From positions 124,001 through 188,000 of the forward strand of contig NZ_CP160388.1 of NCBI RefSeq assembly GCF_040732315.1: 64,000 nucleotides of DNA, read 5' to 3'. Below the pieces are notes generated by a model. The model was given only the letters and a program-made list of their open reading frames with translations. It did not search any database and had not been told where the DNA came from. Every line of letters starts with the position of its first letter. Position 1 is the stretch's first letter. Shown one piece after another: positions 12,633 through 15,218 of the stretch. Both the position numbers and the translations under genes were made by a program. Origin of the DNA: Oryzisolibacter sp. LB2S. GTDB taxonomy: Bacteria; Pseudomonadota; Gammaproteobacteria; Burkholderiales; Burkholderiaceae_C.

Positions 12633-13316
12633 ATGACGCTGCGCGTCGGTGGCCTGACCCGGCTCACCACCATCGACTTCCCCGGCCGCCTTGCGGCCGT
12701 GGTTTTTTGCCAGGGCTGTCCCTGGCGCTGCGGCTACTGCCACAACCCCGAGCTGCTCGACGCTGCGGCGCCCGGCGCCATGGCCTGGGACGCGGTGCTG
12801 GACTTTCTGCGCCAGCGCCGCGGCCTGCTTGACGGCGTGGTGTTCTCGGGCGGCGAGCCGCTTGCGCAGTCGGCCCTGCCAGATGCGCTGCAACAGGTGC
12901 GGGACATGGGCTTTCATACTGCGCTGCACACCGGCGGCATGTACCCCGAGCGCCTGGCCGCGGCCCTGCCGCTGCTCGACTGGGTGGGGCTGGACATCAA
13001 GGCCGTGCCCGCCGACTACGACGCCATCACGCGCACGCCGGGCAGCGGCGCGCGCGCCTGGCAGTCGCTGCGGCTGCTGCTGGCCAGCGGCGTGGCGCAC
13101 GAATGCCGCACCACCTGGCATGCCGGGCTGTATGGCGTCCCGACCCTGCAGGCGCTGGCCGATCGGCTGGCCGAGGCCGGCGTGGCGCATTGGGCGCTGC
13201 AGGAATGCCGCATGCCCGACGCGCCGGCCTGGCCGCTCGCGCCCGCGCAGCTCGCGCAGTGGCGGCAGCGCTTTGCCGGCTTTGTGCTGCGCCGCGGCCT
13301 GGCGGGCATGGCTTGA
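12633..13316 (+). CDS. nrdG: Anaerobic ribonucleoside-triphosphate reductase activating protein (radical SAM)
   Basis: 227 residues. It uses S-adenosylmethionine and a [4Fe-4S] cluster to generate the glycyl radical on the reductase. The radical-SAM motif CxxxCxxC is C29-PWR-C33-GY-C36, preceded by DFPGRLAAVVFCQGC; the SAM-binding FSGGEPL follows near residue 70. The ATG at 12633 lies one base after the preceding stop, indicating translational coupling to the glycyl-radical protein that it should activate. It is longer than E. coli NrdG (154) and resembles the extended pyruvate formate-lyase activase-like NrdG type. Confidence 0.93.
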   Translation: MTLRVGGLTRLTTIDFPGRLAAVVFCQGCPWRCGYCHNPELLDAAAPGAMAWDAVLDFLRQRRGLLDGVVFSGGEPLAQSALPDALQQVRDMGFHTALHTGGMYPERLAAALPLLDWVGLDIKAVPADYDAITRTPGSGARAWQSLRLLLASGVAHECRTTWHAGLYGVPTLQALADRLAEAGVAHWALQECRMPDAPAWPLAPAQLAQWRQRFAGFVLRRGLAGMA

Positions 13317-13317
13317 C

Positions 13318-13362
13318 ATCTGGTCAGGTTGGGCTGACTATTACCCGGATACCTGACCAGAT
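13318..13362. promoter_or_regulatory. Palindromic operator upstream of the antitoxin-like gene
   Basis: Perfect 12-bp arms ATCTGGTCAGGT (13318-13329) and ACCTGACCAGAT (13351-13362) are separated by 21 bp. It lies in the short gap between nrdG and a Phd-like gene, just before AGGAGG. Autorepression by the antitoxin-like protein is the obvious reading, but is inferred. Confidence 0.7.
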
Positions 13363-13382
13363 TGACCAGAAGGAGGCGCCCC

Positions 13383-13763
13383 ATGACCATGGCCGCCAAG
13401 ACTGCCCAAGCCACCGAAAACGCCCCCGGCACCGACCTGTTCGCCAAGGCCGTGGAAAGCCTGGCGCGCAAGCTCGGCGTGGATGCGAGCGACACGCCCA
13501 TGCCCATCTCCCGCTTCAAGTCCGACTACAGCGGGCTCCTGCGTGGTGCCCGCAGCGGTCAGTTGCAGCAGATCTCGCGCGGCGGCGAGCGCTATCTGGT
13601 GCTGAGCGAGGAGCAGGTCATCGCCATGGAACGCTCGAGCAGCCAGCGCCGTACGCTGGCCGACACGCTGGCCTCGGTGCAGGCCCCGTCGGGCGCGCTC
13701 GATACGGCCTCGGTCCTGCTGTCCGGCGAGCGGCACGAACCCTTCACCCTGCCGGGCGCCTGA
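13383..13763 (+). CDS. Phd/YefM-like antitoxin-type protein
   Basis: 126 residues. The middle (about 41-86, PISRFKSDYSGLLRGARSGQ then ISRGGERYLVLSEEQVIAM) resembles the DNA-binding core of Phd/YefM antitoxins, in which a repressor dimer recognises a palindrome. The N-terminal 30-40 residues look flexible. The C-terminus ends in ERHEPFTLPGA, where EPFTLP (119-124) also occurs near the N-terminus of the patatin two genes downstream. AGGAGG precedes the start. It stops one base before the next ATG, so the three genes form one transcript. Family assignment is by pattern, not alignment, and function as an antitoxin is inferred. Confidence 0.68.
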   Translation: MTMAAKTAQATENAPGTDLFAKAVESLARKLGVDASDTPMPISRFKSDYSGLLRGARSGQLQQISRGGERYLVLSEEQVIAMERSSSQRRTLADTLASVQAPSGALDTASVLLSGERHEPFTLPGA

Positions 13764-13764
13764 C

Positions 13765-14223
13765 ATGGCGCGCCCCAACCGCTACCTGCTCGGGCCGCAG
13801 CTGCTGCTTGGCCTGTGCGGCAAGGAGCCGCGCGCCGTGCAATGGGCGGCCACGGTGCAGGAATCCGAATGCGTGCTGAGCCGCCTGGCGATTGCCATCG
13901 TGCGCTCGGTCATCAACAACGGCAGCCGCACCGAGGTGCAGCGCCAGGACTGGCACCAGGCGCTCAGCGCCACCGTCTCGCGCATGGAGGGCGGCGGCGC
14001 CACCCTGGTCGATGTGAACGAAACCGTGCTCGAGCGCTTTCACGAGTACCGCACCCACGCACCGCTGGACTTCAGGACGCCGCGCGGCAGCGCCCCGCTG
14101 GCCCAGGACGTGCGCCTGCTCATCACCACGGCCGCGGTCATGGATCTGGTCTATGCCGAATACACCGACCTCTACATGCAGCAGCTGCAGACCGGCACCA
14201 ACGTGCGGGTGCTGGCGCTGTGA
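13765..14223 (+). CDS. PIN-like protein lacking the first catalytic aspartate
   Basis: 152 residues. The start NRYLLGPQLLLGL has the shape of a PIN-domain first strand (YLLDTNVLL), but the catalytic Asp is Gly10-Pro11. A Glu pair (E33, E35 in VQESECVLSRL), Asp115 (APLAQDVRLLITTAAVMD) and a final strand TNVRVLAL sit where later PIN elements would be. Ribonuclease activity is therefore doubtful; a scaffolding or sensing role is possible. It starts one base after the antitoxin-like stop and overlaps the patatin start by four bases, so all three are probably translated together. Another fold cannot be excluded. Confidence 0.55.
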   Translation: MARPNRYLLGPQLLLGLCGKEPRAVQWAATVQESECVLSRLAIAIVRSVINNGSRTEVQRQDWHQALSATVSRMEGGGATLVDVNETVLERFHEYRTHAPLDFRTPRGSAPLAQDVRLLITTAAVMDLVYAEYTDLYMQQLQTGTNVRVLAL

Positions 14224-15218
14224 GCGCGGCCGTGGACGAACCCTTCACGCTGCCGCCCACCCCGCCGCGCGCGGGCGCCGGGCGCGTGCGGGTGCTGAGC
14301 CTATCGGGCGGCGGCTACCGTGGGCTGTTCACGGCGGCGGTGATGCGGGCGCTGGAGGCCAGGCTCGGCGCCGGTGCGGCGCGGCCCCTGGGCCAGTACT
14401 TTGACCTGATCGCCGGCACCTCGATAGGCGGCATTTTGGCCACGGCGCTGAGCTGCGGCGTGGGCGCCACCGCGCTCGAGCGGCTCCTGATGCAGCGCGG
14501 CGCCGACATCTTCCCGCCCATGCGGCTGCGTGGCCTGCGCAAGCTGCTCGGACGCGCGCCCTACAGCCCGGAGCGGCTGCGCGCGGCCATCGCCACGCTG
14601 CTGCCCGATGCCGACCACCAGCCGCTGGGCGAGCACGCGCCGGCCCTGCTGCTGACCACCGTGAACTGGACCAGCTCCAGGCTGCAGCTGCTGGGCAGCC
14701 GGCCCACCGGCACCCTGCGCGACACGCTGGGCCTGACGCTGATGGATGCCATGCTGGCCACGTCGGCCGCGCCCGCGCATTTCCCGGTGCACCGGTTCCG
14801 GCAGCATCGCTTCGTCGATGGCGGGCTGGCTGCCAACGCACCCGACCTGCACGCGCTGCGCTGTGCGCGCCGGATGCACCCGGGCGCGGAGATCCTCATG
14901 CTCAGCATAGGCACGGCCAACCCGCTGCATGGCCGCGACCCCTCGGCCGTGCCCGCGCGCGGCCTGATGTGGGCAGGCCCCGTGGTCGAGCTGGTCACCA
15001 ATGCCCAGGAAATGCTGGCCGTCGAGGAATGCGCGGCCCGCATGGGCCCGCACCGCTACCTGCGCCTGAACCTGCCCCCGAGCGCAGCGCAGCAGGCGCG
15101 GCTGGACCTCGACGTGGCCAACCCCACCAGCACCGACCTGCTGCGCGCGCTCGCGGACGACTGCCTGGCCTCGCTGTCGCCGGCCGACTGGCAACGGCTT
15201 CGGGCCATCGTCACATAG
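14220..15218 (+). CDS. Patatin-like phospholipase (CapV-like)
   Basis: 332 residues starting at a GTG that overlaps the previous stop (GTGA). All patatin hallmarks are present: the oxyanion loop SGGGYRG (29-35), nucleophile elbow GTSIGG with Ser68, and the catalytic Asp201 in VDGG. It should hydrolyse acyl chains from membrane lipids. There is no signal peptide. Residues 7-12 read EPFTLP, the peptide also found at the antitoxin C-terminus. In size it resembles patatin effectors of anti-phage systems such as CapV, but no cyclic-nucleotide synthase gene is nearby. Control by the two upstream proteins is an inference from gene order. Confidence 0.88.
   Translation: MSAAVDEPFTLPPTPPRAGAGRVRVLSLSGGGYRGLFTAAVMRALEARLGAGAARPLGQYFDLIAGTSIGGILATALSCGVGATALERLLMQRGADIFPPMRLRGLRKLLGRAPYSPERLRAAIATLLPDADHQPLGEHAPALLLTTVNWTSSRLQLLGSRPTGTLRDTLGLTLMDAMLATSAAPAHFPVHRFRQHRFVDGGLAANAPDLHALRCARRMHPGAEILMLSIGTANPLHGRDPSAVPARGLMWAGPVVELVTNAQEMLAVEECAARMGPHRYLRLNLPPSAAQQARLDLDVANPTSTDLLRALADDCLASLSPADWQRLRAIVT

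Follow-up and report, generated by a model that had tools for sequence, protein, structure and literature searches.

Three tightly packed genes, here called A, B, and C, lie downstream of nrdG and in the same direction on the forward strand of the analyzed 64,000-nucleotide stretch (hereafter the window). Gene A (13383-13763) encodes a Phd/YefM-like predicted repressor or antitoxin of 126 aa with a low-confidence C-terminal tail. Gene B (13765-14223) encodes a protein of 152 aa with a predicted PIN fold, designated pseudo-VapC, and gene C (14220-15218, GTG start) a CapV-type patatin phospholipase of 332 aa. A gap of 1 bp separates A from B, and B overlaps C by 4 bp. The coordinates confirmed this packing behind a perfect 12-bp inverted repeat, as a sequence-only reading of the DNA had described it. 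Among the three proteins, Pfam and NCBIfam recognized C alone. Rfam returned no match between 12000 and 16500.

The inverted repeat is formed by ATCTGGTCAGGT and ACCTGACCAGAT (arms 13318-13329 and 13351-13362, spacer of 21 bp). Half-sites of the form TGGTCA/TGACCA occupy 13321-13326, 13354-13359, and 13363-13368, and with the repeat they constitute a predicted operator (13318-13368) ahead of A, where Phd/YefM genes have an inverted-repeat operator as well. By its likeness to the consensus, TTGACA (13313-13318, forward strand) may be the −35 box of the promoter driving the operon, and a possible weak −10 element (GACTAT) lies 17 bp beyond it. The window and three other loci with the same gene trio (L002, L003, and L004) have a −35-like box 8 bp ahead of their first half-site. 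Within 100 bp upstream of A, seven of nine loci have three copies of the half-site, L005 has two, and L012 has one, with 0.03-0.05 occurrences per locus expected from shuffling. It is retained in L005, L006, L011, and L012 despite an identity of only 26-38% between their A proteins and that of the window. Neither this retention while A diverges nor the tail peptide shared by A and C (see below) had been part of the sequence-only reading. The upstream region of L012 carries a different palindrome, centered on TGTACA.

For gene A, alignment with 10 ordinary Phd-like proteins by hhalign gave a probability of 82 (E = 1e-5), and the Phd/YefM model PF02604 matched five of nine A proteins of the trio at E <= 10 (best 1.4e-4). 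A family-model search with the A protein of the window returned 0 families. The earlier assignment of A to the Phd/YefM-like proteins has some support from profile comparison and is of moderate confidence. An N-terminal extension of about 40 residues (window 13383-13500) precedes the Phd-like domain and is mostly missing from the ordinary Phd-like antitoxins of relatives. Foldseek with the low-confidence A model gave nothing usable. Searches of the PDB with sequence profiles of A and B returned no Phd or PIN chain (none at E <= 10, or unrelated rows only); the matches of profile A9 were excluded because it mixed ordinary Phd proteins with A.

For gene B, the PIN-like outline noted previously corresponds to a confidently predicted VapC/PIN fold, and hhalign aligned B to ordinary VapCs at 95.1%. 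A Pfam search of B yielded nothing credible. The catalytic Asp/Glu/Asp triad of VapC is missing. When the columns of B and of ordinary VapCs were paired through hhalign, D8, E45, and D102 were invariant among the 11 ordinary VapCs, while the corresponding columns of 29 aligned B proteins held G10 (29/29), I, M, or L at position 45 (29/29), and V, L, I, M, or T at position 116 (29/29); the window protein has G10, I45, and V116. The reported Gly-Pro in place of the first catalytic Asp was likewise verified as Gly10-Pro11, with Gly in every aligned B protein. Three residues flanking the lost catalytic positions (S39, D115, and R117) are invariant in all 29 proteins, which hints that the rim of the former active site may still serve for binding. 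In all loci read, B is an intact frame showing no decay.

Gene C retains GGGYRG (residues 30-35), GTSIG with the nucleophile S68, and DGG with D200. These motifs are invariant in nine aligned trio lipases, so that the full set of patatin catalytic residues attributed to C is indeed present. The protein scored 86.4 bits against PF01734 and 214.8 bits against NF041079 ('CBASS cGAMP-activated phospholipase'), just above the cut-off of 200. In PADLOC, lipase C was the sole match, to phospholipase effectors, and the solved chains nearest to C include CBASS lipases. The trio therefore resembles CBASS with a CapV phospholipase in employing the same patatin subfamily. It differs from CBASS in that no CD-NTase gene was found beside C, in the longer N-terminal tail of the lipase, and in having two toxin-antitoxin-like partners and no cyclase. 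Public names of C homologues (P0062, P0064, P0130, and others) read 'CBASS cGAMP-activated phospholipase'.

Using tblastn with three cGAS proteins at E <= 0.01, no cyclase was detected in the window or in eight trio loci (L002-L007, L011, and L012); the same three proteins detected the cyclase of the control locus L096. A whole-genome search with the SMODS model (PF18144) found nothing. The DncV-type cyclases of L091, L093, and L095 also escape this model, so a cyclase may exist elsewhere in the genome. Screening with a crude cyclase pattern, for which family models confirmed six downstream genes only, placed lipases beside a cGAS passing the NCBIfam cut-off in L091, L093, L095, L096, and L034, and beside a weaker cyclase in L111. 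These six cyclase-adjacent lipases start 7-20 residues ahead of the domain, whereas the trio lipases have a longer N-terminal tail. Moreover, four trio lipases scored 208-215 bits against NF041079, compared with 257-408 bits for 16 other above-cut-off lipases. The 'CBASS cGAMP-activated phospholipase' label is likely misleading for the trio lipase group. We also noted a second group of patatins, those of L097-L105, which reach 279-310 bits with the CBASS lipase model. In L098 and L101, a CBS-domain gene comes next. No convincing cyclase emerged from the crude pattern, and these patatins are possibly another over-annotated group.

The trio proved to be conserved as a unit when gene neighborhoods were read. 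A lies upstream and C downstream of B in all 12 distinct B loci (the window, L002-L008, L010-L012, and L123, the C of the last being truncated at the end of its stretch), which represent about five lineages and include near-duplicates (L002 and L008 are identical in A and C; L006, L007, and L010 are close). Two weak class-level matches, L016 and L017, were left out of this count. L016, an ordinary Phd-VapC pair that has DTN but lacks a lipase, was rejected as a trio member and used as a control. Across eight loci, protein distances correlated at 0.975 for A-B, 0.933 for B-C, and 0.961 for A-C. For 18 of 54 listed B proteins, the longest contig equals in size that of a listed C protein, which is circumstantial but fits linkage.

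The trio is rare. Of 398 genomes from the family, 6 contained B. The order gave 2 of 300, neither of them new, and the class 3 of 369, i.e. the window's own genome and the weak matches L016 and L017. A strict pattern retrieved six loci from a collection of 84,980 species. One of 233 genomes in the family of a Rhodanobacter MAG (that MAG itself), one of 16 in the genus of L011, and one of 7 in that of L012 (in both cases the genome already in hand) contained B. L005 (NZ_CACSJA010000039.1) is titled Pantoea, yet its trio groups with Delftia trios, and the label may need a check. A mobile-element carrier was considered and not seen: searches for B in plasmids, phages, and viral contigs were empty.

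Genomic surroundings differ between carriers. The order is nrdD-nrdG-trio-LysR-SDR-RecQ in the window, nrdG-trio-RecQ in L002, and NorB-trio-RecQ in L003. In two trio-free genomes of the same genus, nrdG lies beside LysR-SDR (L125) or beside RecQ (L126), and no B match was found anywhere in either genome. The trio thus behaves as a cassette. At the trio-free site of L125, between LysR and nrdG (L125:1175-1440), a widely spaced inverted repeat was observed, made up of GAGCGTGTTCACGATCTTTTC and its reverse complement. Spacing within the trio also varies. A and B are 103 bp apart in L002, compared with 1 bp in the window; the L002 gap (L002:3436-3538) contains an insert whose ends are nearly complementary (CATTCGTGTC...GACACGGATG) and which may be a miniature element. 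The 4-bp overlap of B and C recurs in L002-L004 and L011, and in L012 the two genes are about 67 bp apart.

Reading the sequences of A and C revealed a common peptide: EPFTLP stands in the C-terminal tail of A (13737-13754, forward strand) and again in the N-terminal tail of C (14238-14255, forward strand). The motif changes jointly in both proteins between lineages. The pairs of A tail and C head are (i) EPFTLP/EPFTLP in the window; (ii) DPFTLP/EPFTLP in L002; (iii) DAFTLP/DPFALP in L003; (iv) DPYSLT/DQFNLP in L004; (v) DIDVP/DLDVP in L005; (vi) DIDVP/DFDVP in L006, L007, and L010; (vii) QFKLPR/QFQLPR in L011; and (viii) DAYALG/DQYRLG in L012. Compared with shuffles, same-locus P values were 3e-4 (window), 0.008 (L002), 0.08 (L003), 0.12 (L004), 0.005 (L005), 0.03 (L006), 0.06 (L007), 0.007 (L011), and 0.21 (L012). 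The pairs of L004 and L012 are not significant singly, and the best-scoring match of L004 differs from DPYSLT/DQFNLP. Combining one locus chosen per lineage by Fisher's method gave P = 3e-6 (window, L004, L005, L011, and L012), with 2e-4 and 2e-3 for weaker locus choices. When lineages were re-paired, and with the true pairing counted, 2 of 120 scored as high in three choices of loci, and 7 of 120 did so in a fourth. Overall, the tail statistics are of moderate strength.

Codon usage bears on the origin of this likeness. In 9 of 10 loci, at least one residue common to the two tails is encoded by different codons, a pattern that selection on the peptide explains better than a recent DNA repeat does. 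In the window itself, the tail-coding stretches (13734-13754 and 14235-14255) are identical at 19 of 21 nt and form a near direct repeat flanking B; in L004, L005, and L012, only 12 of 21 nt are identical. The peptide is common among C homologues. Of 339 such homologues, 120 were listed, 118 of which had readable heads; among the 66 distinct heads drawn from them, 56 carry [FYIL]x[LV]P, compared with a mean of 5.2 and at most 12 after shuffling. An acidic residue stands directly ahead of the motif in 60 of the 63 distinct heads that have it under a looser pattern. Other lipases seldom show it: a short tail pattern was seen in one of the six cyclase-adjacent lipases (YDVP in L095), and the same YDVP was, as judged by eye, the one case among 14 readable of the 16 non-trio above-cut-off lipases from 200 genomes (L094 and L106 were not readable by pattern). 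Among 42 viral CapV-like loci, a motif script matched 2, and L034 was the one followed further.

The tail of A also resembles those of ordinary antitoxins. Among 13 in-frame Phd-like/PIN pairs of relatives, judged by eye, the antitoxin ends in a P(x)R peptide in nine and not in four, and L, V, or I precedes P in six of the nine (EIKLPARG, DLVLPERG, GIELPPRT, and EYLVPPRG are examples). These antitoxins are paired with PIN proteins, and the A tail accordingly resembles a PIN-docking peptide. In ordinary antitoxins, the LPxR peptide is nearer to the Phd domain than the motif is in A; with this different spacing, the equivalence of the two rests on likeness only.

Phd/YefM-VapC modules share with the trio an inverted-repeat operator, a small antitoxin-like gene in first place, a VapC-fold gene in second, tight coupling, and LPxR antitoxin tails to which that of A is similar. 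The trio departs from them in that the 29 B proteins have no acid at the three catalytic columns, and in a third gene, a lipase with a tail peptide, at all 12 loci read. Tripartite modules such as HipBST, omega-epsilon-zeta, and PaaR-PaaA-ParE also comprise three genes, in some of them with the regulator first and the effector last. To our knowledge, none of these has a lipase effector or a tail shared by regulator and effector. The CmdTAC system is reported to consist of a toxin, an antitoxin, and a chaperone that senses capsid, the toxin being an mRNA ADP-ribosyltransferase (PMC11618068). It is like the trio in having three genes and a third protein central to holding or releasing a toxic enzyme; the trio, by contrast, has a dead VapC as its middle protein and an effector that itself bears an antitoxin-like peptide. 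A trio of Phd, pseudo-PIN, and patatin genes was not described in the open-licence literature searched. While its components are known, their combination and the likeness of the tails are, as far as our searches go, new.

In VapBC complexes, the antitoxin tail sits in the groove of the toxin, and CapV lipases in CBASS are off by default until their ligand arrives. Given this off state, and since no cyclase was found nearby, we favor activation of C by B, with A as a labile guard. Our leading proposal, to which we give a little less than an even chance, is that B is a peptide receptor, occupied by the A tail in healthy cells and by the C tail, with the lipase switched on, after loss of A. A, perhaps with B as co-repressor, would bind the TGACCA operator and, by analogy to known type II modules, would be the labile partner. 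The former active-site groove of B may take either tail, making binding mutually exclusive: the A tail would fill the groove, and the C tail would do so once A is lost. Docked on C, B might activate or oligomerize the lipase, replacing the cyclic dinucleotide of CBASS. The outcome would be membrane damage and growth arrest, possibly directed against phage; such a defense role is conceivable from the effector family and the cassette behavior. The sequence-only reading, which saw a defense or abortive-infection device with the lipase as its toxic part and the two small proteins holding or sensing, is partly supported. More tentatively, the trio could represent an immune switch of a new class that arose from a toxin-antitoxin pair. 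A dead VapC would be the receptor, the lipase would bear the docking peptide of the antitoxin C-terminus at its own N-terminus, and competition between A and C would take the role that cGAMP has in CBASS.

The main rival is restraint of C by B, nearly as open as activation by B although in our estimate rather unlikely. The dead VapC would here be the lipase's direct antitoxin, acting via the C tail, and A a separate repressor with B as co-repressor; excess C would strip B off A and derepress the operon. The gene order A-B-C matches the regulator-antitoxin-toxin order known from three-gene modules, the tail evidence fits equally, and the 4-bp B-C overlap persists in the window, L002-L004, and L011 while the A-B gap reaches 103 bp in L002. 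However, about 67 bp separate B from C in L012, a PIN domain with its compact fold is hardly what one would expect of a labile antitoxin, surplus A would free the lipase, which is the opposite of what an antitoxin does, and the default-off state of CapV in CBASS also speaks against it. The tails might instead be tags for a third host protein, such as a protease adaptor or another hub, which would recognize them and treat A and C in the same way. A tag common to two different proteins, at opposite ends, would suit this idea, but it appears improbable, given that the motif varies by lineage jointly with the trio and that like tails occur in many ordinary PIN-paired antitoxins.

Two further explanations dispense with tail docking or with the trio as a functional unit. 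Gene conversion holding a direct repeat, or chance, could account for the tail likeness, and the trio would then work without docking; the 19 of 21 identical nucleotides in the window and the P values of 0.12 in L004 and 0.21 in L012 agree with this. The differing codons for shared residues in 9 of 10 loci, the mere 12 of 21 identical nucleotides in L004, L005, and L012, and the retention of the motif in most of the 66 distinct C heads, among the C homologues listed, render it quite improbable. Finally, C could be a stray CBASS effector that receives cGAMP from elsewhere in the cell and lies behind a decayed Phd-VapC pair by chance. Its above-cut-off NF041079 score and its nearest solved chains, which include CBASS lipases, are in keeping with such an origin, and the blindness of the PF18144 genome search to DncV-type enzymes leaves room for a distant cyclase. 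Yet the same trio recurs in 12 of 12 loci with no cyclase found nearby, the frame of B is intact in all loci read, and the trio lipases score only 208-215 bits as opposed to 257-408 for the 16 others; we regard this origin as very improbable.

If B indeed acts as a receptor for the two tails, a toxin would have lost its enzyme activity and yet survived as an adaptor, and toxin-antitoxin pairs could be rewired to control any effector that gains the right short tail. A CapV-type lipase would then have a protein trigger and not a second messenger, and labels such as 'CBASS phospholipase' may mislead where a cyclase does not adjoin the gene. A few point mutants in the tail peptides would put the idea to a direct test.
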